Shown here piece after piece: positions 1 through 30,153 of a stretch of 47,015 nt of DNA. Position numbers and translations under genes: made by a program. Position 1 is the first letter of the stretch. Every line of letters starts with the position of its first letter. The notes beneath the pieces are model-generated. The model was given only the letters and a program-made list of their open reading frames with translations. It searched no databases and was not told the DNA's origin. Source of the stretch: a virus; IMG/VR virus record IMGVR_UViG_3300042876_000641, positions 1 to 47,015 of that record, one strand, 5' to 3'.

Positions 1-360
1 GAGGGAGCCACCAACAGTCAGGTTATCCGGTAATGCGGTGATCTGTGTTCCACTGAGGTCGAGGGAGCCACCAACAGTCAGGTTATCCGGTAAGGATGTG
101 ATCTGTGTTCCACTGAGGTCGAGGTAGCCACCAACAGTCAGGTTATCCGGTAAGGATGTGATCTGTGTTCCACTGAGGTAGAGGGAGCCACCAACAGTCA
201 GGTTATCCGGTAATGCGGTGATCTGTGTTCCACTGAGGTCGAGGGAGCCACCAACAGTCAGGTTATCCGGTAAGGATGTGATCTGTGTTCCACTGAGGTC
301 GAGGTAGCCACCAACAGTCAGGTTATCCGGTAAGGATGTGATCTGTGTTCCACTGAGGTC
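1..360 (-). repeat. Six tandem 60-bp repeats coding for LRR units, with 180-bp higher-order period
   Basis: Six 60-bp units follow each other without gaps. The variable codon is Ala in units 1 and 4 and Ser in units 2, 3, 5 and 6. Units 3 and 6 also share a gaggtagcc start. The array is therefore two nearly identical 180-bp blocks of three units each, which points to recent block duplication. It continues beyond base 1. Every unit is 60 bp and stays in frame, so copy number can change without breaking the protein. The contig edge inside the array may be an assembly break. Confidence 0.95.
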
Positions 361-438
361 GAGGGAGCCACCGTAATGAAGTTTGCCGTCCTTTTCTTCA
401 AGTTTAATTCGTGTGATTTTTTCTAGTTCTGTTTTCAT
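1..438 (-). CDS. Leucine-rich-repeat protein, C-terminus outside window
   Basis: Reading leftward from ATG at 438, a short charged leader (begins MKTELEKITRIKLEEKDG) runs into six or more exact 20-residue repeats of the form DLSGTQIT-A/S-LPDNLTVGGSL. This is a leucine-rich repeat of a kind often seen in Bacteroidota phages and prophages. No stop codon is reached before the window edge, so the gene is partial at its C-terminus. It is the last visible gene of the leftward early operon. LRR solenoids usually bind proteins; the target here is unknown. The lack of a signal peptide argues for a cytoplasmic or virion-associated protein. The LRR identity is clear; the function is not. Confidence 0.85.
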   Translation of the reverse strand, partial: MKTELEKITRIKLEEKDGKLHYGGSLDLSGTQITSLPDNLTVGGYLDLSGTQITSLPDNLTVGGSLDLSGTQITALPDNLTVGGSLYLSGTQITSLPDNLTVGGYLDLSGTQITSLPDNLTVGGSLDLSGTQITALPDNLTVGGSL

Positions 439-10213: not shown

Positions 10214-10294
10214 GGGAGTATTGAGCAATTGGCTGGCTCGCTTGACTGTAAATCAGGTTCGAAAGACGTATAGGTTCGAGTCCTTTTGCTCCCA
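10214..10294 (+). tRNA. tRNA-Tyr (anticodon GTA)
   Basis: Acceptor GGGAGTA pairs with TGCTCCC (one G-T), D-stem GAGC/GCTC with a GG-containing loop, anticodon stem CTTGA/TCAGG with loop CTGTAAA, a 12-base variable arm as expected for Tyr, and T-arm ATAGG-TTCGAGT-CCTTT with one mismatch. Discriminator A at 10294; CCA is not encoded. The long variable arm and GTA anticodon agree on Tyr. Confidence 0.85.
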
Positions 10295-10735
10295 CGATGT
10301 TTCAATGACGTTCTTAGACAGGTTGTTTGGACGCGGGTTCGACTCCCGCCAGCTCCACATACGGGGAAGTAGGCAGGTTACATTAAGAGGCGCAATTCTG
10401 GTGTAAAGTGAGTGAAATGACTGCCGAGTAAGCTCAGTTCTTCCCCACCCATACTTAACGCCAATTAAGAAGCTGTTGGAAGTAAGTGGCCAACTGATTT
10501 TAGGAGATTCGAGGTAGCCTAAAAAAGAATGACAAAAATATTTGCAAGAGGGTACGTGCTCGAGACCCGTTTGATTGCATTTGCTCGACCAGGGGCTGAC
10601 CGGTTTTGACTATGATTCTGTAGATTAACCGAGAAGCATCAAGCCATAACAGGCAAAACAATTACAATGGTTCCACAGCCGCTAAGAGCAGTTGCGTAAC
10701 ACGAAACTAATCCCCACCGATAAAGGGGATTACAT
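10295..10735 (+). ncRNA. ssrA: Circularly permuted (two-piece) tmRNA
   Basis: tmRNA rescues stalled ribosomes by adding a degradation tag. The 3' tRNA-like end comes first: GGAC, T-arm GCGGG-TTCGACT-CCCGC (10333-10349), acceptor CAGCTCC (10350-10356), A. Its 5' end lies 234 bases further on: GGGGCTG (10592-10598) pairs with CAGCTCC over 7 bp, followed by the tmRNA-typical GGTTTTGAC. A P2-like helix can be drawn between the parts: GATTAACC/GAGAA/GCATC (10623-10640) with GGTTGTTT (10321-10328), TTCTT (10311-10315) and GATGT (10296-10300). A tag frame, GKTITMVPQPLRAVA then TAA, runs 10652-10699; a P5-like hairpin (AATCCCC/GGGGATT) follows at 10709-10731. No PK1 is evident. SmpB would come from the host. 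Confidence 0.72.
10363..10591 (+). other. Structured intervening segment inside the permuted tmRNA
   Basis: Between the two tmRNA parts GGGGAAG (10363-10369) pairs with CTTCCCC (10440-10446) and encloses GGCAG/CTGCC. Further on, TTTTAGG pairs with CCTAAAA around 10498-10525 and GGGT with ACCC around 10551-10568. The segment ends TTGCTCG-A-CCA immediately before the tmRNA 5' end. I could not fold any part into a proper tRNA. It is far longer than typical intervening segments of permuted tmRNAs. Confidence 0.45.
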
Positions 10736-10808
10736 GCCGGATTAGCTCAGTTGATAGAGCATCTGTTTTGTACTCAGAAAGTCAGCGGTTTGAATCCGTT
10801 ATCCGGCT
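10736..10808 (+). tRNA. tRNA-Thr (anticodon TGT)
   Basis: 73 bases: acceptor GCCGGAT/ATCCGGC, D-arm GCTC-AGTTGATA-GAGC, anticodon stem TCTGT/TCAGA (one T-T mismatch) with loop TTTGTAC giving TGT at 10769-10771, T-arm AGCGG-TTTGAAT-CCGTT. It abuts the tmRNA coding part upstream. It differs from the tRNA-Thr(CGT) fragment of attP, so it is a phage-carried tRNA. Confidence 0.9.
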
Positions 10809-14481: not shown

Positions 14482-17364
14482 CTAACTTTTTACCTGATTA
14501 AACTTTGTCTTAGTATTCAATGAAATCATCGGTGCAATCCACGAATCATAGTCACAAATTGAAGTAATAAGCACGATAATTTCCTGCACCTTCATACGGG
14601 AAATAGTATTTGTTCTGTAAACATTCATCGGTTGTGCCGTCTGGGTACCACCGAGCAAAAACCACTTGTCGGCTTTCTTTGCTTCGTTTCCGAAGACTAC
14701 TATTCCGGTGTATTTTCCGGCGCTTGCGGTCAACTCAGTCAGGATCTCAATGTCATTAATAGCCAATTCCCTGCCAAAATTAATCGGTTTTGTCTGAAGC
14801 ATAATCTTAACAGGATTCCCGGATTCCTCACTTTGGTTTTGGCCTAAGTCACCACTGTTTGAGCAGATGTAAACCAATTTCCCTTGATCAGTCAGGGCAA
14901 AATGCTCTGAATAGGTGTCGCAAGTTGAGATAAACTTCTCGTCCGCAAAGGAGAAACACTTGCTTTCCATTGAGTAGTAGATGTGCTTCGCCCATGCAGG
15001 ATCAGAAATGATAATCTCATTACGTGCCCGGTCAAAAGCCAGTGACGTGTTAGCTGTGATTAGAGAGCGGATATCCTTCAGGACATACTCGAAGTTATCC
15101 ATGCCAAATAACTGTGCGTGCGAGGTCATTTGGCCATAAATATCCATGCCCCTGAGTGGGTTCGGAGTGAGTGAATCCGACACAATGGTATTCAGTGGGT
15201 GCGAAAGAATGGAAACTTCTTTTCCGGATAAAGCTGCAATGCCTCTTTCCGAAATAAAAATGATGGATCCGTGAATAGGCAGGGTATTTCTTCCAACACA
15301 TACTTCTGAGTTCATCGGTACTATTGCTGAGAACAGAACATTGCCGTCACCCTGCATCAAAGCGTAAATTCCTTCCGTGGTAAACACGTTCATCGGGTAC
15401 TGACCGAACTGTCCGGTTGAAACTGTCTCGGTAGTGGAGTCCATAGCGACAATCTTTCCGCTTCCCACCCGGTAAGAGTGTTTTGAAAGGAAAGTAAACG
15501 GATTATCCACCTCAGAAACGATGATCCGGTTTTGGTCAATGTAACTATTCAGTGTATTTGGAGCAGAAAACAGTGTTAGGCCCGGCAGTGTTTCTCCGGC
15601 GTGCTGAATTATGACCGTTGTGAAGTTGAAATACTTGTAAGTGGAAAACATGGATGCGGACCATGCCGGATTGGAAGCAAAACCATTCTCCCTTGCCTGT
15701 CCCCAAGATACATTGACGTATTGGGCAAAGTTGCTGTTGACCGAACTTGTCAAAGCCACTTCTTTGAGGAACATTTCCGCATCATTAGATGGTTGAATGA
15801 TGGTAAATACCATTTTGTACGCTCGTCTATCCGGGTAACCTATCTGCCCGGGCAGTGCAATCAGCCTGTCATTGCTTGGGGATAGCGTGTAAACGCCTCC
15901 GTTGTATGAATATTTCTTGTACGTCTTGTAGGTTTGCGGTGTCCGGATGATTCTTTCACCGTCCGAGGTTTTCAGGTAAGCGTAAGAATAGCCTGAGAAA
16001 TTCTCTGATCCTGCCGAACGAAAAACATTGTCCCCGTTATTCACACCTTTGACGATGGAATCAAAAATTGCATCCACCGGTTGTTGAAGCAGGTACCCGT
16101 CACTCAGGTTTACTTTGATATCTCCCAGGAGTAACCTGGAATTGTAAACTTTTGATGCTTTCGGGACTGAAACGTGCCATGACTCATCCGCCAAAGAGAA
16201 TGTTTCCCTTGTAGCGTAGTTATTCCAATAGTTTTTCAGGTCGATTTTCATGTTGTAGAATCCACCCGAACCTTGCATATTGACAATATCTTCAAGGTTA
16301 TGGGTGCCTACTTTGTACCAGATTTCGGGGTCGTTGCCTTTGTCCCGGAAGAGTTCGTTGAGTGCGAAGATTTTTGAGTAGGCATAAGGCGAGTCATTCA
16401 CTGCCAGTCTCAGGGAATCACTCTTTTGCAGTTTACCCTTATCTAAATCAAAAACTCTTTGTGGCGCCGAAGCGAAAACCTCAATACCCTTGATGAAGTT
16501 TTTCACATTACAGGTGTTCCCGGCTACCGTGTTGTCAGTCAGAAGTGTGTCAATAACTGAGGACTGTACTGATAAAGAGTAAAGATTTGAGTAAAGTTTT
16601 GGCCGGTAGTTCATGATAGAGTTACCACCCTCCCCTGTTGTGCTTGACTTGTAAAGACTGTTGTCCACCTTTGCACCCCATGAGAAAATTGGTTGAGTTG
16701 GGAAAAGTATCGTATCGTCAAAAAGTCTCAGGCCAATCCTAAACCAGCATACCCCCGGTAACCCACCCTGCTCGGCAGACATTTTGCTTTCCAATTTGTA
16801 AATATCATCCAAAATGGCAATGTCGAAATCATCAACAAATGAGTGAGTGTGAAGAAGGTAGTATTCATGGTTCACTCCCTCGAAAACAGTAGGGTTATCA
16901 CTCGGGCATACCCTGAAATCAATCTTCCTAAAGTCATAAACATTGGCTCTCTTATAGGTGATCCGGTCGTTATCGTCCGTATACCCAAAGTAAACCCTGA
17001 GTTGAGACGAAGTAATCACGTACAGGTAATTTTTGAACGAGCGAATCTCGAGCAATGTACTTCCGTCCGAGCAAACAGAAGAATCGAAAGCGGTAACAGT
17101 GGATTCACTGGCCGTGCCTTTCCCTCCGAAGTTTGACAGTACCCCATTGTCAAGTTTAATCCATGACTCCCACTCTGCTGTTTTGTGCAGAAAGGTTTTA
17201 GTCACTGTTCCGGCCATAGTCAAAGGGTGTGCTGACCGCTTCTTTCCAATGGGTCGAAGTACATTACCCTCATGTCGAAGGTTAATCAAATGGGACAGTG
17301 TACCGTTCTTTGAAATTGAGGTAAAGTCTGTCGTTGTCAGGGGTATGTCAATTCTATTCTCCAT
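14482..17364 (-). CDS. Large tail or tail-stabilisation protein, 960 aa
   Basis: A long protein rich in beta-strand repeats, with no signal peptide or membrane segment. Segments such as LFSAIVPMNSEVCVGRNTLP, FISERGIAALSGKEVSIL and SMESKCFSFADEKFISTCD have the repetitive look of beta-propeller blades (short Gly/Asp turns, IYALMQGDG). Large propeller-like proteins of this kind act as tail-hub or head-tail stabilisation proteins in short-tailed phages of Bacteroidota. The call rests on fold impression, size and late gene context, not on a specific signature. Overlaps the preceding 62-codon gene by 11 bases. Confidence 0.55.
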   Translation of the reverse strand: MENRIDIPLTTTDFTSISKNGTLSHLINLRHEGNVLRPIGKKRSAHPLTMAGTVTKTFLHKTAEWESWIKLDNGVLSNFGGKGTASESTVTAFDSSVCSDGSTLLEIRSFKNYLYVITSSQLRVYFGYTDDNDRITYKRANVYDFRKIDFRVCPSDNPTVFEGVNHEYYLLHTHSFVDDFDIAILDDIYKLESKMSAEQGGLPGVCWFRIGLRLFDDTILFPTQPIFSWGAKVDNSLYKSSTTGEGGNSIMNYRPKLYSNLYSLSVQSSVIDTLLTDNTVAGNTCNVKNFIKGIEVFASAPQRVFDLDKGKLQKSDSLRLAVNDSPYAYSKIFALNELFRDKGNDPEIWYKVGTHNLEDIVNMQGSGGFYNMKIDLKNYWNNYATRETFSLADESWHVSVPKASKVYNSRLLLGDIKVNLSDGYLLQQPVDAIFDSIVKGVNNGDNVFRSAGSENFSGYSYAYLKTSDGERIIRTPQTYKTYKKYSYNGGVYTLSPSNDRLIALPGQIGYPDRRAYKMVFTIIQPSNDAEMFLKEVALTSSVNSNFAQYVNVSWGQARENGFASNPAWSASMFSTYKYFNFTTVIIQHAGETLPGLTLFSAPNTLNSYIDQNRIIVSEVDNPFTFLSKHSYRVGSGKIVAMDSTTETVSTGQFGQYPMNVFTTEGIYALMQGDGNVLFSAIVPMNSEVCVGRNTLPIHGSIIFISERGIAALSGKEVSILSHPLNTIVSDSLTPNPLRGMDIYGQMTSHAQLFGMDNFEYVLKDIRSLITANTSLAFDRARNEIIISDPAWAKHIYYSMESKCFSFADEKFISTCDTYSEHFALTDQGKLVYICSNSGDLGQNQSEESGNPVKIMLQTKPINFGRELAINDIEILTELTASAGKYTGIVVFGNEAKKADKWFLLGGTQTAQPMNVYRTNTISRMKVQEIIVLITSICDYDSWIAPMISLNTKTKFNQVKS

Positions 17365-21537: not shown

Positions 21538-24500
21538 ATGGCTGATCCGCAATTTATACGGTCATTCAAAGATGCTGATGGCAAAACATACGATATACCT
21601 TCTGATGAGGCCAATGACTTTGTGAAAGAATTTCCCAAAGCACAGGAGATTCATTCTTTTGTAGTCGGTAAAGATACCCTTGATATTCCAAAAGAAGAAG
21701 TCGCTGATTTTGTAAAGGATATACCGGAAGCAAAACCGCTTCAAAACTATGATTTGGGCCAACCTGTTCCTGTTCAACCAAAACCCTTAATAGCAGAACC
21801 AGAGACAGGCAAAGACACAAAGCCCGATCACGGCTACCTTATGTCAAATATCCTTCAGGGGATTACTTCGACCGAGAAATGGATTTACGATCTCCCGAAG
21901 CTTCTTTACAAAACAGCAGCACTTCCCTTTGAAGGGCTTGCCAATGTTACCGGATTCGAAGCGCTCAGGCCACCTTCCACAGAACAAATTAATAAGGGTT
22001 ATGAAAAGATCCCCGGAGTAGGTAATATCAGTAAAATGCTCGGTGATTATTCGGACTACCTGCAAAACAACATAGAGGCCGATCCTGACGCAAAGAAAAA
22101 CGTTATAGATACTTTCACCAACGGGATAAGGAATGGTGACATTAAAGAAATAGGCACCGGATTTAAGCTCTTAGGTGGTCAGTTATTGCAGTCTCTTCCT
22201 TCAACCATACTTGCCGGAGCAGCCGGAATGAAAGCGGTTGATACCGGACTGAAAATGACACCTTACCTGAAAGAATTAGCGAAGTCATACGCACCCCTTA
22301 CGGCGGTATTTGCGGAAGGCAAACTTGATGAGATTGAAAAGAATGCACCGGATCTGCCTAACGCCGAAAAGCTGACTATTGCATGGGCCAACGGATTCTT
22401 TGAGAACCTTTTTGAAAGAGAACTCGGAGCCGGAGCAGTGGCACAGTCTTTGGCCGGAATCATAAAGAATGCCGGAAAAGAAGAAGGCGCAAAAATTGTT
22501 AAGCAAGGCTTTAAGAAAACTTTTGCCGAAATGCTTACCGATAAACCCTGGATGGCACCATTTGGGGAAATGTTTGAAGAAATGGGTACGCAGATTTCCG
22601 AAAATGCCTTTGACAAATACTTTGGGTACAGACCCGAAATGAGTCTCATGGATGGAGTGGCCACGGCCGGACTTGCCGGATTAACGATGGGTGGCGCTTT
22701 CGGTGGAGTTATCTCAGGAACAAAATACGGTGTCGAAAAAGTCAATCAGGCCGCTTACAACAAAAGAAAGTCAGACCTAATCAATCAGGCCGGAACACAC
22801 ATTGATGAAAACGTTATTCCCCTGATTAAACACGACACTTCAGACCAAATTATTGAAGTAAATCATAAAGGTAAAGGCTGGTTTGTGGTCAGTGGTGATG
22901 TCAACGACCCATCATCCATGCTTATCCTTGCCAACAAAGAGAATCCACAGGAAAGGATTACTCCAAGCAGGGCCGAAATTGACACCAAGGATATTCTTTA
23001 CATACCAACTTCCGAGTTTCGTGACTCACAACTGCAAGATCTTAAAGATCAATTTGCAGAAATTGAGGCAAAGAAGAAGCAGAAAGTCCAACAGGAAGAT
23101 CATGCCGCATCATTCACGCTTAATGACCCCGTAACCATGCCAGATGGCAGAACCGGAAAAATAATCCGTATTGAGGGCCGCGACCAATTCTTTGTCGTTC
23201 CAGATGAAAACGAAGGTCGGGAAGTCAACCCAATGCTGTTTAGTCCGGCAGAACTCACAAAGATTCAACCCCCAACAGATCAATCCACCATTGAACCAGT
23301 AACAGACCAACAAAATGAGCAACCATCAAACACCAATCCAGTTGAGACAAAGCCAAAAGAGCAGCTTATCAACATCGGAACTCAAGCAGAACCTCAAAAT
23401 ACGAGGCTTATCACCGACCCGGATGGGATCAAACGAGTTGATGCGAAGTTCGATGACCAAGCCTCCGCTAATAAAGCTGCTGAAATTATTCGTACAAAAG
23501 GTAAAGTATCAGCTAACTACGATGTAACAGTTGACAGAGTTGAATTAAATCCTGACGATGAATTTACTGATGTAATCTATACCGTCACACTTCGCCCAAA
23601 GGTGGCCGTAAGTTCCCAAATATCTCCTAATTCTGAACAAATTGGGAATAATTTGGAATCAAAGGTTTCAGAAACAGCCGTTACCCCCACGGTTGAGGTG
23701 ACACAGGAGCAAGCCCCAAAGACCTCTACTCCTGTTGAGCCTGAAAATGGGAATATTCTCAATTCGCAAATTGCAAATGTTTCAGAAAATGTTAACAATA
23801 ATTTAATACAAACTGAAAATGTTTCCGAAATAAAGCCACAAGAAACTAATATTGAGACTATTACTGAAACTATACCGACTGAAAGTTTACAGAAAAGTTC
23901 AACTCAAAAAGTAAAAAAAGAAAAAAGTGCACCGAAAATTCAAACCGAAGCCTACAATACAGAAACTCACCCAAGAGATGTAAGGGCAATTGTCCTGAAA
24001 CACTTCATCGGTGGAGGCAAGATAAATAAGTCTGCACTTCAAGAACTGTTTGGAAAGAAAAACAGCACCAATAGGGACGCTGCGGTTGAGGCTGAACGCA
24101 AACCAAGATTCACATGGGTTTCAGATTCAGAAGGTTCAAGTATTGCACAAATAGCGCACTCTCTTTGGGAAGAACACGGCCTTGACTCGGAAGGAAACAC
24201 TATTGAAGGAATGAGTGACCAGGACTTCCGCAACGAAATTGAAGATGTAATCAAGAGTTATTCTTCCCCTGTTCAAATGGCTAAAGACCTTCTTTCAGTA
24301 AATAAGGCCAAAGAAAGCCAATATACTGACGAGCAAATCCTTGAAATGGAAAAATTAGGGATAACAAATGAACCATTGTCAGAAGAAGATGCTATATTTG
24401 TAAATAGTGCACCACAAGATGATGCTGAATACATTAACGCTCTTAATGAATACTACGGGTTATCAGCCGAAGATCAAACAGCACTAAATAATTTATACCA

Positions 24501-27500
24501 TGAGTCTTACACAGGAACAGAGAATGGAGTTAGCCAAAGCAGCCCGAAACCTGAAAGCAATGGAACAAGCCAAGCAGAGAACAGGCCAGTCTCACCCGAA
24601 AGAGAAAAAATCGAATCCGAAATAACTCAGGTTAAGTCCGATTTAAAGAAGGCAAAATCCCTTGCCACAAAAGCATCATCCCTTTACAATAAGTTAAAGA
24701 AATCGCCTGAATTTGGCGGAAAAGGTCAAATATCCCAAGACGGAACAGTTGCGGGAAGTGAAGCTATTGATTTTGGTAATGATGCAATTTTAAACGGTGC
24801 GAAGAAAAAAGTAACCGAAGCTAATCAGGCTGTTTCTGAACTCGAAAAGAAACATGCCAAACTTGAAGATTCCCTTGTAAATGTAGTGCATAATCAACAG
24901 GAATTGTTTGTTTCTCCCCTCACCGACCTTATTGACCAATCTAAAAAGAAATCAAATACTGTTGACTCTCAACTCAAAGGTCAAGACATTAACCTCAATC
25001 CAACAGAAGGTCAAAAAGAAGCCGGAAATTACGCTAAAGGCCATGTAGTAGTTCGGGGAATGAATATTACCATTGAAAATCCAATTGGTTCAGTCCGAAA
25101 AGGTATAGACGAAGATGGTAAAGCATGGGAACACACCATGAAATCCCATTATGGCTACTTCAAGCAAACCGAAGGAAAGGACGGTGACCATATTGACACA
25201 TTCATTGGCCCTAATCCCGAAAGTGAAAAAGTATTTGTAGCTGACCAAATCAATCCAAGTACCGGAAATTTCGATGAAAGTAAGGTGATGATTGGTTATA
25301 ACACCGTTGAAGAGGCACATCAAGCCTATTCCGAGAATTACGACAAGGATTGGAATGGGTTAAAGTCCATCACGGAGGTTGGTATAGTTCCTTTCAAAGA
25401 ATGGCTAAATGACGGCAAAAAACAGCACAAACCCTTTGCGGAGTACAAAGAGACTCCTGACCCAACAATAATTGTTCCACTTAACACCCAACCCAATGAA
25501 AGCGAAAAAGTGCAAGCCGAAGGTGGTAAAACCGCCAAAGAAGAAGTAAAATCTGAACAACCAAGTGTTGAAACAGTTAAGAAACCGTCTTTGGAAACGG
25601 AGGCGGTTTCAGTTTCTCCCCTTGAATCACTTATCGCTACCTCTCAAAAGAAAACAAGTGTAAAAGTTACTTCTCAGGCCGCAAAAGTCTTTGAACCCGG
25701 CACAAAAGTCAACACAAAGTTCTTAGGTCAACCACTTAGGGCGACCGTACTTGATTCCCCAAGAATATCCGAAGGAAAACTGAAAGTTAAGTCAAGTGAT
25801 GGAGTTATCTATACCGTGAAGGTGAGTGATACAAGCGTGGCTGAATCAAGATATTCAATGTTGGATGATATGATTTCTCCTTTCCTTGATTTAGTTCAGG
25901 GGAAACAGTCTCAAAAAGCAATTGCAAGAGCGATTCTTTCAATATCAAAGACCAAACAAAAAATTCTTTTCCTAAATAAAGAGGATGCCGCTAATAATAT
26001 GGTACAAAATGGAGTTAGTCCGGCAGACGCAAAAGAAACACGGATAAAAAATTATCAGGCAGTTCAGATAAAAGGAAGAATTTATATAAAGCCCGAAATT
26101 ACTGACCCAAGAGAAGTTGGACGACTTATTATACATGAATTAATACATGGTAAAATAGAGTCACAATTTCCCAACCTATTAGATAGGAAAGCGTACTGCG
26201 AAGATATTTATCTTGCGTTGGGTAAAAACGAGATTGAATCCGTTGTTCCGGAAGGATATTGGTCTGACCCAATACGGATTCAAGGAGAAGAATACTTCTC
26301 TCATAAAGTCGAACAAATAATAGAAAGATTACTTTTTAGTCCACAAAAATCTGCCGAACAGATATTTGACGAAATATTGTCAACAGTTCCAGATAATTCA
26401 ATTAAAAACGCTATCTTAGAAACAGTAAATCAAACCATTGAACTTAATAAATTAAGAGATGTTATCAACACCCATATTACAGGAAATAGTGTTAGTAAAC
26501 AAAAGCGATCTATCACCAAAGGAGAAACAGTTAGTAATAGACTGTCTGAACCAAGACACTCCGTGGACCCCAGAAGCGGAGGAACTTCTGAACAAGGTCT
26601 ACGATACGGTGGGAAAAGAACCCCTATTCAACAGGTAACCCATGCCTACGACATACTTAATCCGGGAGATAAAACGGTATCTGAGGGTACTAAAAAGATT
26701 GGCAACAAGAAAGAAAAGCCAGCCAACAATTGGATTTCCCAACGGCAGGAAGTACCGGAAATGGGACAAGTTCATGGAAACCCCGTACATGAAGGCGAAA
26801 ATGGAAGAAGAAATGGCAATTCCATACCAAAAGAGAGTAAGAAATCCGCTCCCCCAGCAATTAAAATAGATGGAGTTGACCAACCCACTCACGCCTTAGA
26901 TATTCTCAACGGAACAGCAATGTTCTCCCGTGATGCGAAACCCCTGACAGTTGAAGAAAAAAGGGCACAGCAAAAAGCCGAGATCACAGAAATTGAATGG
27001 GTAAAGACTGCTGGAGAAAGACTCAGAAGAGGCATGCAGGATGCGGAACTCTCCGCAAAGTTAATGCAGGAATTTATTGAAAAGGCCACAGGGGAGAAAT
27101 TACCAAGCCACATGGACGGTTACAAGTCCCAAAACCTTGAATCTTCCAAAAATGCCTATGCCATAAAGCAACTTGAAGAGACTATTGTAAAACCTTTAGT
27201 CCGGGCGCAGCTTGACCTAAAAAATAACTACAAGGTTTCCGATGAAGAAATTGCCGACTATGTTATGGCCTCCCATGCACCGGAACGGAACTTAACAGAA
27301 CGAGCAAAACGGGTTAATGCAGATTATAGCAAGGTAGAAAACTCAGTAGGCACAACAGAACAGGTGGTCAATTTAATGGATGACCTGAAAGCCCAAAACA
27401 AATACAAGGAGCAAGTCACCAATATGTCTGCCGATGAGTTTAGGGCCTGGTACCTGGAAAAGAAAAAAGCCCAACTCGAAAAGAAATATGCCGAAAATGA

Positions 27501-30153
27501 CTATGCTGGACTGACCGAATGGATGAATGAAGAAGTTGATAAAGGTCTTTATCACCCAAGCAACAGAGAGGAATCGCGAGAAAAATGGTCTGTTGACGAA
27601 TTTGCCAACTTCAAAATCAAGCAGTTTGAGGATAAAGTCACGGATAAAAAGCATCTGAAAGAACTTTGGCACCAGGTTAACCGGTTGACAAAATTTTCAC
27701 TCGATGAAGATTTAAGAAGCGGAAGAATCAATCAGCAGATGTACGATTTTTTACTCAACAGGTGGAAAAAATACGTGCCATTAAGAGGTTTTGAAAACAT
27801 TACCGCCGGAGACGTATTCGACTACACAACTGGAGAAACTAACGGGATGATTCAGCCCATGAAAAGAATTGAGGGCCGCAGATCAAAAGCCGATGATCCG
27901 TTTGCCAACATGGTCAGTATGGCCCAATCCTCAATCATTCAGGGGAACAAAAACAGAACAGCACTGAGCGCACTGTATATGGTTCGTGCTTATCCACAAT
28001 TTCAAGCGAAAAACGATAAGGCAAGTGGACTGTTTCGTTTGGCAAAAACCGTACTCAGAAAAGACACCGTAACGGGTAGTTGGTTTGAATATGACGAAAA
28101 CGACGGAGTTGTTCCGCAGGAAGATTTTGACAAAGGTCTCGCCAAGCGAGTTAGCGACCCTTCATCTTTCCTTTTGAGAAGGACAAATCTTCAAGACAAA
28201 GAAAGTCAGGTTGTGGCCGTTGAGGACGGAGTACGAAAAGTAATGTATTTCGCAGACCCGGACGTTGCCCGGTCTTATAAAGGAATCAATAAGGAAAGCA
28301 CCGAGAAAGTTGTTAAGGCTTACACAGCAGTTATAGGGAAACCCACAAGGATAATTACCCGGCTCTGGACAACATACAGCCCAAAATTCATCCTGAGCAA
28401 CACTCCGGTTGACTTACTGTTCTCTGAGTTTAATCACATGATTAACAGCAACGGAAACTTCATCGGTTTCAATCAGGCGCTTCCCGGATCCGCAAAAGTC
28501 CTTTCTAAATATGTTTGGGGTGGTAGGGAATCGCTTAAACCCGAATACGACTCCAATGGTGTCCCGACAAATATGGATGGATTCATGGTGGAGTTTTTGG
28601 AGAATGGAGCAGAAACCGGATTTTCACACCAAATGAGCATAGCACAACACAGAATAGCAATCAACAAGTTGCAAAAAGAGTTAAGTGGAGATGCCCTGTA
28701 TGCGCCTAAAAAAGTTCTCGATGTTGTAATTGACCAAATTCAGCACACGGCAGAACTTTCAGAAGGACTTTCAAGACTTTCAACTTATGTCGCCTCGAGA
28801 AAATCTGGAAAGACAAAACAACAGTCCGCTTTTGATGCCCACGAGATAACTGTGAACTTTACCAAGTCCGGTAAATATACCTCTGTATTCAGTCCTTTGT
28901 ACGGATTCTTTAATGTAGGGTTTCAGTCTTTAAAGACCGGAGCAACACTGATTAATCAAAATAAAGGTAAAGGAATAGCAGCTTTGGCCGCACTGGTTGC
29001 ACTCGGTTATGCAACGGCGGCGGTACTCTCAGCCACAGGGCCGGAAGATGACAAAGACAAGTCACTCTATTACTCGCTTTCGGACTATGACAGGTTCAAT
29101 AAATTCATAATTCGTAACGGAAAAGGATTTATCGTCATTACAGTTCCTCACTTTTTCAGGGCTTTCTACGCTTTGGGGGTAGGCATTCACGACATAACAT
29201 CCGGCCACAAAAATATGATGGACGGTGTTTTGGATGTTTCGGGGAATATGCTTTCCACCCTCTCACCCATAAATATGCAAGGATCAGGATTCACTAAAGA
29301 TGGAGCGAGCGCAAGGTTTGTTGTTCCGACCGCACTACAACCCGTTTTAGACCTAAAAACCAATAGTGATGCTTTCGGTTCAAAAGTATATAAAGAGCCT
29401 TTCCTTCCGGCCATGAACGGTGTTGATCCGGCTTATACAATGTCCATGCCTTATGTGAACCCCACTTTAAAAGAGGCATCCCGTAAATGGAACAACCTAT
29501 GGGGTGGTGACGACAACAGATCAATGGAAATGGTTGTCAATCCCAAAACGCAGGAATGGGAACACAACAAACTTAAGGGTATGATAGACTGGAACCCCTC
29601 TCAGGTTGAACACGTTTTTGAATATATGGGTGGCGGTGCGGCGAGATCATTCAACGAGCTTGCCAAAACAGTAAACTACCTGATTGATAAAAGTAACGGA
29701 AAGGATGTTCCACTTGAACCAAGAAGTACTCCAGTTTTAAGCACCTTCTATCGGGAGCCAAAATCGGTAAATGATATTTCTAAAAGCTACAACCTTCTTA
29801 AAAGCAGGATGCAAACACAGGATTTCATGACCGCAAAGGCTAAAGAAGAAATGATTACCAATAAAAATTCAAGTCCTTTCATTAAGGAAATGAGCAATAT
29901 CTACACACGAAGAAGGATGGCTGCGTACGACATAGCCGAAAAACAGTTGGATGCCCTTAACAAGTCATTCAAGTACGATCCTTCCATGAAAAATGCAGAA
30001 ATGATGGATAGGGTCAACCAGATTAAAAAAACAGCAGTGGATGAAGTTTTGAAGATCGACAAAAATCTTGAAGAACTCTATAAAACCGGATCAAACGAAG
30101 ATACCCGTAATAAATCTTCTGCCGATAACCTATTAAAATACCTTCATAAATAA
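21538..30153 (+). CDS. Giant polyvalent protein with pyrophosphatase-like, zincin and C-terminal LPD-type domains, 2871 aa
   Basis: Order: two N-terminal repeats with DIPxxEVxDFVKDxPEA (1-62); weak membrane helices (about 210-225 and 380-405); low-complexity Pro/Thr linkers; a helical domain (about 800-925); a coiled coil (1020-1065); an InPase-type domain (about 1160-1300) with GHVVVRGMNITIENPIGSVR and GDHIDTFIGPNPES; an HExxH zincin motif IIHELIHGKIE (H1533, E1534, H1537); and a C-terminal region (about 1790-2800) resembling the large polyvalent associated domains, with a membrane helix at 2479-2501. Polyvalent proteins are injected with phage DNA and carry several effector activities. It stands two bases after an internal virion gene and five before the portal, so it is probably packaged. 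Domain names beyond InPase and zincin are tentative. Confidence 0.75.
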   Translation: MADPQFIRSFKDADGKTYDIPSDEANDFVKEFPKAQEIHSFVVGKDTLDIPKEEVADFVKDIPEAKPLQNYDLGQPVPVQPKPLIAEPETGKDTKPDHGYLMSNILQGITSTEKWIYDLPKLLYKTAALPFEGLANVTGFEALRPPSTEQINKGYEKIPGVGNISKMLGDYSDYLQNNIEADPDAKKNVIDTFTNGIRNGDIKEIGTGFKLLGGQLLQSLPSTILAGAAGMKAVDTGLKMTPYLKELAKSYAPLTAVFAEGKLDEIEKNAPDLPNAEKLTIAWANGFFENLFERELGAGAVAQSLAGIIKNAGKEEGAKIVKQGFKKTFAEMLTDKPWMAPFGEMFEEMGTQISENAFDKYFGYRPEMSLMDGVATAGLAGLTMGGAFGGVISGTKYGVEKVNQAAYNKRKSDLINQAGTHIDENVIPLIKHDTSDQIIEVNHKGKGWFVVSGDVNDPSSMLILANKENPQERITPSRAEIDTKDILYIPTSEFRDSQLQDLKDQFAEIEAKKKQKVQQEDHAASFTLNDPVTMPDGRTGKIIRIEGRDQFFVVPDENEGREVNPMLFSPAELTKIQPPTDQSTIEPVTDQQNEQPSNTNPVETKPKEQLINIGTQAEPQNTRLITDPDGIKRVDAKFDDQASANKAAEIIRTKGKVSANYDVTVDRVELNPDDEFTDVIYTVTLRPKVAVSSQISPNSEQIGNNLESKVSETAVTPTVEVTQEQAPKTSTPVEPENGNILNSQIANVSENVNNNLIQTENVSEIKPQETNIETITETIPTESLQKSSTQKVKKEKSAPKIQTEAYNTETHPRDVRAIVLKHFIGGGKINKSALQELFGKKNSTNRDAAVEAERKPRFTWVSDSEGSSIAQIAHSLWEEHGLDSEGNTIEGMSDQDFRNEIEDVIKSYSSPVQMAKDLLSVNKAKESQYTDEQILEMEKLGITNEPLSEEDAIFVNSAPQDDAEYINALNEYYGLSAEDQTALNNLYHESYTGTENGVSQSSPKPESNGTSQAENRPVSPEREKIESEITQVKSDLKKAKSLATKASSLYNKLKKSPEFGGKGQISQDGTVAGSEAIDFGNDAILNGAKKKVTEANQAVSELEKKHAKLEDSLVNVVHNQQELFVSPLTDLIDQSKKKSNTVDSQLKGQDINLNPTEGQKEAGNYAKGHVVVRGMNITIENPIGSVRKGIDEDGKAWEHTMKSHYGYFKQTEGKDGDHIDTFIGPNPESEKVFVADQINPSTGNFDESKVMIGYNTVEEAHQAYSENYDKDWNGLKSITEVGIVPFKEWLNDGKKQHKPFAEYKETPDPTIIVPLNTQPNESEKVQAEGGKTAKEEVKSEQPSVETVKKPSLETEAVSVSPLESLIATSQKKTSVKVTSQAAKVFEPGTKVNTKFLGQPLRATVLDSPRISEGKLKVKSSDGVIYTVKVSDTSVAESRYSMLDDMISPFLDLVQGKQSQKAIARAILSISKTKQKILFLNKEDAANNMVQNGVSPADAKETRIKNYQAVQIKGRIYIKPEITDPREVGRLIIHELIHGKIESQFPNLLDRKAYCEDIYLALGKNEIESVVPEGYWSDPIRIQGEEYFSHKVEQIIERLLFSPQKSAEQIFDEILSTVPDNSIKNAILETVNQTIELNKLRDVINTHITGNSVSKQKRSITKGETVSNRLSEPRHSVDPRSGGTSEQGLRYGGKRTPIQQVTHAYDILNPGDKTVSEGTKKIGNKKEKPANNWISQRQEVPEMGQVHGNPVHEGENGRRNGNSIPKESKKSAPPAIKIDGVDQPTHALDILNGTAMFSRDAKPLTVEEKRAQQKAEITEIEWVKTAGERLRRGMQDAELSAKLMQEFIEKATGEKLPSHMDGYKSQNLESSKNAYAIKQLEETIVKPLVRAQLDLKNNYKVSDEEIADYVMASHAPERNLTERAKRVNADYSKVENSVGTTEQVVNLMDDLKAQNKYKEQVTNMSADEFRAWYLEKKKAQLEKKYAENDYAGLTEWMNEEVDKGLYHPSNREESREKWSVDEFANFKIKQFEDKVTDKKHLKELWHQVNRLTKFSLDEDLRSGRINQQMYDFLLNRWKKYVPLRGFENITAGDVFDYTTGETNGMIQPMKRIEGRRSKADDPFANMVSMAQSSIIQGNKNRTALSALYMVRAYPQFQAKNDKASGLFRLAKTVLRKDTVTGSWFEYDENDGVVPQEDFDKGLAKRVSDPSSFLLRRTNLQDKESQVVAVEDGVRKVMYFADPDVARSYKGINKESTEKVVKAYTAVIGKPTRIITRLWTTYSPKFILSNTPVDLLFSEFNHMINSNGNFIGFNQALPGSAKVLSKYVWGGRESLKPEYDSNGVPTNMDGFMVEFLENGAETGFSHQMSIAQHRIAINKLQKELSGDALYAPKKVLDVVIDQIQHTAELSEGLSRLSTYVASRKSGKTKQQSAFDAHEITVNFTKSGKYTSVFSPLYGFFNVGFQSLKTGATLINQNKGKGIAALAALVALGYATAAVLSATGPEDDKDKSLYYSLSDYDRFNKFIIRNGKGFIVITVPHFFRAFYALGVGIHDITSGHKNMMDGVLDVSGNMLSTLSPINMQGSGFTKDGASARFVVPTALQPVLDLKTNSDAFGSKVYKEPFLPAMNGVDPAYTMSMPYVNPTLKEASRKWNNLWGGDDNRSMEMVVNPKTQEWEHNKLKGMIDWNPSQVEHVFEYMGGGAARSFNELAKTVNYLIDKSNGKDVPLEPRSTPVLSTFYREPKSVNDISKSYNLLKSRMQTQDFMTAKAKEEMITNKNSSPFIKEMSNIYTRRRMAAYDIAEKQLDALNKSFKYDPSMKNAEMMDRVNQIKKTAVDEVLKIDKNLEELYKTGSNEDTRNKSSADNLLKYLHK

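Follow-up and report, generated by a model that had tools for sequence, protein, structure and literature searches.

A circularly permuted tmRNA gene between two tRNA genes in a Bacteroidota phage

Permuted tmRNA is known from alphaproteobacterial, betaproteobacterial, cyanobacterial and organelle lineages, and the locus described here raises the question of whether a phage of Bacteroidota also carries such a gene and what it could do in an infected host. The locus lies in a viral stretch of 47,015 nucleotides (IMG/VR record IMGVR_UViG_3300042876_000641), the whole of which is referred to as the window. Positions 10296-10735 hold a circularly permuted tmRNA gene bracketed by tRNA-Tyr and tRNA-Thr, in which the 3' tRNA-like half is encoded upstream of the 5' half on the same strand, as located by the positions of the elements (Table 1). 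An earlier, sequence-only reading had proposed a tmRNA-like 3' end placed before its own 5' end in one orientation, a 7-bp pairing of the two acceptor strands, and a tag frame ending in RAVA-stop; every element that it named was found in its place, all seven acceptor pairs form when the G3-U70 wobble is included, and the tag frame is the same as that given by ARAGORN.

Table 1. Features of the permuted tmRNA locus and the flanking tRNA genes (window coordinates)
Feature	Coordinates	Strand	Basis or remark
tRNA-Tyr (GTA), directly upstream	10214..10294 (to 10295 in ARAGORN)	+	ARAGORN; Rfam tRNA 47 bits
Acceptor piece: P2 3' strands, T-arm, acceptor 3' strand, discriminator A10357	10296..10357	+	RF04321, R1
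P2 distal 3' strand GATGTTTC	10296..10303	+	Pairs with 10633-10640
P2 proximal 3' strands TCT and ACAGG	10312..10314, 10318..10322	+	Predicted to pair with 10622-10624 and 10617-10621, respectively; duplex prediction
T-arm GCGGG-TTCGACT-CCCGC	10333..10349	+	R1; covariation of the T-stem among family members
Acceptor stem 3' strand CAGCTCC	10350..10356	+	7/7 pairs with 10592-10598, including G3-U70
Intervening sequence (IVS)	10358..10591	+	Between discriminator and G1; removal expected
IVS hairpin closed by GGGGAAG/CTTCCCC	10363..10446	+	Fold; closing stem of L058 similar by inspection
IVS core: CGCCAA-loop hairpin, GTTGG/CCAAC and TTTTAGG/CCTAAAA stems, block GTAGCCTAAAAAAGAATGACAAAA	10454..10591	+	
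Coding piece	10592..10735	+	ARAGORN, R1; 3' end inferred from tRNA-Thr start
Acceptor 5' strand GGGGCTG (10592-10598) and D-loop analogue ACCGGTTTTGAC	10592..10610	+	Common to Bacteroidia one-piece tmRNAs
P2 5' strands	10617..10640 (10617-10624, 10633-10640)	+	Cognate versus non-cognate pairing test
GCC-ATAACA-GGC hairpin with resume codon GGC (10652-10654)	10643..10654	+	Kept in most relatives
Tag frame GKTITMVPQPLRAVA-stop	10652..10699	+	ARAGORN; AA/VA-ending tags in the family
Post-tag hairpin TAATCCCC/GGGGATTA	10708..10732	+	Relatives: hairpin in the same place, often with a T-run
tRNA-Thr (TGT), directly downstream	10736..10808 (to 10809 in ARAGORN)	+	ARAGORN; Rfam 63 bits

ARAGORN independently reports a permuted tmRNA in the window with the tag GKTITMVPQPLRAVA, and covariance models also returned the locus. 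The Rfam model RF04321 (tmRNA_permuted) matched 10298-10699 with 46.6 bits (E 8.7e-8, 1.2 kb searched), in an alignment that spans the full model and treats most of the 234-nt IVS as inserted sequence. This score is 0.4 bit short of the gathering cut-off of 47 bits, which is a detection threshold and not a structural feature, and the IVS of the window is among the longer ones of the family; at gathering thresholds, only the two flanking tRNAs appear at the locus in Rfam. The covariance model R1, which was built from nine other viral loci with the window excluded, scored 92.3 bits (E 1.2e-19), and its second-best place in the window reached only 10 bits. The ARAGORN calls were not accepted unchecked: the permuted call in L191 proved false, and the tag of L054 was miscalled. 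A one-piece reading through RF00023 (10231-10360, 30 bits, the sole match of this model) was rejected as spurious, as it recruits tRNA-Tyr sequence; the standard order of 5' half, tag, pseudoknots and 3' half was not found, nor was any intact one-piece copy in the window. The blastn search against phage records gave mostly generic tRNA/tmRNA matches, and the promoter and terminator scan, with patterns of the sigma-70 type only, gave nothing informative.

The window itself is phage DNA, with portal, terminase, capsid and tail genes. Its integrase shows Phage_int_SAM_5 and a weak Arm-DNA-bind_5 match, domains usual in Bacteroidota phages, and the closest portal relative is in a Bacteroidetes genome (38%); because of these structural genes, integrase domains and portal relative, the phage was assigned to Bacteroidota. 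A second contig, G001 (IMGVR_UViG_3300044712_001199), is 99.985% identical and starts at window position 15132, so it does not include the tmRNA locus and speaks neither for nor against it, and a 60-bp tandem repeat array links window 1-372 to the right end of G001. G001 is the same phage, of which the window lacks about 16 kb, and the genome is probably about 63 kb. The tmRNA is absent from the relative G002. Elsewhere in the window, a single 2871-aa ORF (21538-30153) has inorganic-pyrophosphatase-like and LPD38 domains (large polyvalent protein) and matches DarB-like antirestriction and virion protein families.

Similar loci, at least 25 in all, were found in IMG/VR, in crAss-like phages, in the Maribacter phage Panino and in a phage region of one Bacteroidota genome. 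The IMG/VR scan with the 5' motif GGGGCTGAYYGGTTTTGAC gave 18 contigs, about half of which show the permuted order, with the 3' half first; a search with the 3'-end pattern brought additional loci, and R1 found further members including L133, L144, L085, L138, L061, L143 and the crAss-like cr7_1. RF04321 was above its cut-off in 8 of the 9 relatives tested, and the isolate Panino (PP540027) scored 101.8 bits with R1. The genes of Panino and of the crAss-like phages cr7_1, cr114_1, cr130_1 and cr273_1, which the records annotate only as 'SsrA', are of the same kind as that of the window: all were called permuted by ARAGORN, with GK, GN or DN tags and often with tRNA neighbours. With blastn, the Panino tmRNA stretch matched none of the other phage records.

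The pairings between the two halves persist across this family. Among the window and 22 relatives, the acceptor stem forms across the pieces with 7/7 pairs in 23/23 members, and G3-U70 and the discriminator A73 are invariant in the same 23. G3-U70 is the alanine identity element. Acceptor pair 5 changes from C-G to G-C in L143 and cr7_1, and pair 4 from G-C to C-G in cr7_1, with the stem kept each time. No CCA is encoded after A10357 in the acceptor piece of the window, and the same holds for nearly all members.

For P2, the 36 nt that follow the 5' tRNA-like domain (TLD) were paired with the 36 nt that precede the 3' TLD in 22 members. The results showed a mean of -16.6 kcal/mol for cognate halves in comparison to -9.6 kcal/mol for swapped partners, and the cognate total was not reached in any of 20,000 permutations; the window's own value was -14.6 kcal/mol. 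In a separate test against dinucleotide shuffles, P2 of the window alone is not significant (p about 0.2). The sequence-only reading had drawn P2 with up to 18 pairs. The distal half of that helix (10633-10640 with 10296-10303) is supported, and its equivalent is kept in L143 with changed bases, whereas the proximal half is not supported as drawn and is more likely formed by 10617-10621 with 10318-10322 and 10622-10624 with 10312-10314. This predicted proximal part, which requires a bulge and G-U pairs, is less certain than the distal helix. An asymmetric internal loop, whose coding-strand side is GGAGA-like and whose acceptor-strand side is TTCRTTGA-like, also recurs in P2 (noted in L083, L085, L138, L054, L133, L050, L060 and the window), and it is perhaps a kink-turn-like or protein-binding motif.

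These family tests of the acceptor stem and P2, along with ARAGORN, RF04321 and R1, support the presence of a permuted tmRNA in a Bacteroidota phage. We read the locus as a tmRNA gene because the gene order, the acceptor and P2 pairing, the alanine-identity elements and the tag frame are conserved, and it very probably encodes a two-piece permuted tmRNA which is matured by the host, tags stalled products with GKTITMVPQPLRAVA, and belongs to a lineage of Bacteroidota phages in which pseudoknot 1 (PK1) has been lost.

The tags end in AA or VA in 22 of 22 full-length members (that of L058 was read by inspection, and L133 is truncated), and most of them start with GK or GN and not with AND. K or R often stands just before the C-terminus (RAVA, RKAA, KLAA, KMAA, KVAA), in comparison to YALAA or YAMAA in host tags, and we speculate that a basic residue near the tag end could alter the choice or rate of protease. 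G1 and the resume codon lie 59 to 68 nt apart in nearly all members and 75 nt apart in L049; the corresponding spacing is 83 to 149 nt (median 92) in AND-tag permuted tmRNAs, and standard tmRNAs have a median of 95 nt. In 19 of 20 members, P2 ends 6 to 12 nt before the resume codon, and this gap within a total of about 60 nt leaves no room for PK1, so that the coding piece retains the short GCC..GGC hairpin in which the resume codon lies and a single post-tag hairpin. In known two-piece tmRNAs, PK1 and PK2 lie in the coding piece and PK1 is typical (PMC3985003); the absence of these pseudoknots was counted against the tmRNA explanation.

Such a reduced structure, in a phage whose records yielded no SmpB, would also suit a decoy, an expressed RNA whose tRNA-like domain, charged or bound to SmpB, would titrate SmpB and so weaken trans-translation in the host while tagging itself is unimportant, and the TLD-only tmRNA of mycobacteriophage DS6A has been reported to inhibit tmRNA (PMC4131195, PMC11915505). 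We consider a decoy unlikely, as every full-length member, however diverged, has retained a tag frame with its resume motif and a C-terminal AA or VA, and a decoy would need none of them.

Where the permuted form came from was assessed through comparison with known tmRNAs. The phage family shares with the permuted tmRNAs of alphaproteobacteria, betaproteobacteria and cyanobacteria (RF04321; RF01849-RF01851) the order of acceptor piece, IVS and coding piece, the joining by acceptor stem and P2, and the position of the tag frame in the coding piece. It differs from them in (i) the lack of PK1, with the resume codon only about 60 nt from G1; (ii) tags of the form GK.. or GN.. ending in RAVA, KLAA, KMAA and the like in place of AND..ALAA; (iii) a Bacteroidia-like TLD; and (iv) carriage by phages. 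The one-piece tmRNAs of Bacteroidia have nearly the same tRNA-like domain as the phage family (GGGGCTGACYGGTTTTGACAGC / TGGACGAGGGTTCGANTCCCTCCAGCTCCA), but they differ in their linear order, in the spacing to the resume codon (about 95 nt), and in their tags GENNYALAA and ANDYSYAMAA. The mean TLD identity of the family was 0.83 to Bacteroidia one-piece tmRNAs in comparison to 0.76 to AND-tag permuted tmRNAs, which over the approximately 50 nt compared weakly suggests a separate permutation event.

Horizontal acquisition of a permuted tmRNA of alphaproteobacterial, betaproteobacterial or cyanobacterial lineage would explain the shared gene order, and AND-tag permuted tmRNAs were also recovered in the present searches. 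Alphaproteobacterial-type two-piece tmRNAs are described from Melnitz/pelagimyophages, phages of OM43 and SAR11, in the accessible part of PMC9004378, which counts 53 two-piece calls in phages and makes no mention of the Bacteroidota-phage group; from what is given there, these tmRNAs are permuted and phage-borne like the gene in the window but of the alphaproteobacterial type. The nearer TLD identity to Bacteroidia, the shorter spacing to the resume codon, the mostly GK or GN tags and the unencoded CCA of nearly all members make such an acquisition very improbable.

The IVS varies from 41 to 266 nt among relatives. Its core in the window is almost identical in L143 and L049/L055, where P2 and the tag diverge. 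This element (window 10454-10591, L143:6496-6625, L055:1105-1235), with a CGCCAA-loop hairpin and the block TTTTAGGAGATT..GGTAGCCTAAAAAAGAATGACAAAA, is thus conserved above the flanking tmRNA halves in three phages, and (G)CCAA-loop hairpins were seen by eye in the IVSs of L050, L056, L058, L060, L070, L085, L105 and L138. A tRNA-His lies inside the IVS of L196 (NC_055897.1, crAss-like cr114_1) at nt 39-111 after GGAC, and the IVS of cr130_1 (L198) has an apparent tRNA-like sequence by eye which ARAGORN does not call. The IVS had no match in Rfam up to E 10, and its folding z-scores were ordinary. The near-identity of the core and the tRNA inside the IVS of a crAss-like relative could be taken to mean that selection acts on the IVS RNA as the product and that the tmRNA halves are chiefly processing sites, but the core is absent from most relatives and the IVS can be as short as 41 nt, which leaves little probability for this explanation.

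Three viral contigs (L091, L102 and L131) carry a tmRNA 3' end only (GCATGTAGAAAGC/GCATGTAGAAGGC...CAGCTCCAC) and are probably attachment sites of phages integrating into ssrA. That the window locus is likewise a relic, with host tmRNA fragments left by integration standing by chance near a 5'-end-like sequence, agrees with the existence of such fragments, with the false permuted call in L191 and with the integrase of the phage, but it is highly improbable and largely refuted already by covariation: P2 and acceptor pairing, compensatory changes, a conserved tag and constant spacing recur in more than 20 diverse loci, no CCA is encoded, the window has no intact one-piece copy, and the 3' end at this locus does not stand alone but has its pairing partner downstream.

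The sequence-only reading had also suggested that the phage gene might replace a lost host tmRNA, which is unsupported, as a standard tmRNA was present in 12 of 12 Bacteroidota genomes tested. RF04321 was above its cut-off in 1 of 395 Bacteroidota genomes, within a region of phage-type replication genes, and this genome also has a standard one-piece tmRNA; SmpB was present in the two hosts tested. Since the hosts keep the standard tmRNA, the permuted gene is an addition brought by the phage and not the host form. The accessible part of the Panino paper names one tmRNA, proposes that it may offset disruption of the host gene on integration, and does not mention permutation. The sequence-only reading knew of no case in a Bacteroidota phage; the family is a recurring one, some copies of which are auto-annotated as SsrA, but among open-access texts no paper was found that recognises this lineage or the absence of PK1.

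The preferred reading, a host-matured two-piece tmRNA, can be followed from the flanking genes. The acceptor half begins 1-2 nt past tRNA-Tyr and the coding half ends at the start of tRNA-Thr. Panino has a similar arrangement, with tRNA-Asp upstream (35 nt before GGAC in comparison to 33 in the window) and tRNA-Thr downstream (141 nt from G1 in comparison to 145 in the window), and the same tRNA bracket suggests that each of the four ends could be produced by the enzymes of tRNA processing. The tmRNA gene would be transcribed together with the flanking tRNAs, and host RNase P and tRNase Z would cut at the tRNA ends and the acceptor ends, so that the IVS is dropped; the acceptor piece would owe its 5' end to 3' processing of tRNA-Tyr, and the coding piece its 3' end to the RNase P cut at tRNA-Thr. 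Of the two expected products, joined by the acceptor stem and P2, the acceptor RNA would measure about 62 nt and the coding RNA about 144 nt. The host CCA-adding enzyme would then take part in supplying the phage tmRNA, host AlaRS would charge the two-piece RNA, and host SmpB would carry it to ribosomes stalled during infection, where the phage-specified tag would be added and the product sent to host proteases; the tagging would depend entirely on host factors.

More broadly, we lean towards the view that the family is a fourth independent permuted lineage, derived from Bacteroidia tmRNA and found mainly in Bacteroidota phages, which is free of PK1, matured through flanking tRNAs, and overlays host tagging with phage tags that are often basic near the C-terminus. 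If it is true, a separate origin in Bacteroidota phages would provide a further, independent case against which ideas on the permutation of tmRNA genes can be tested. A natural minimal tmRNA, with about 60 nt to the resume codon and no PK1, would indicate what trans-translation can do without, and the isolated pair of Panino and Maribacter makes it testable why phages add a tmRNA with a tag of their own where the host already has one.
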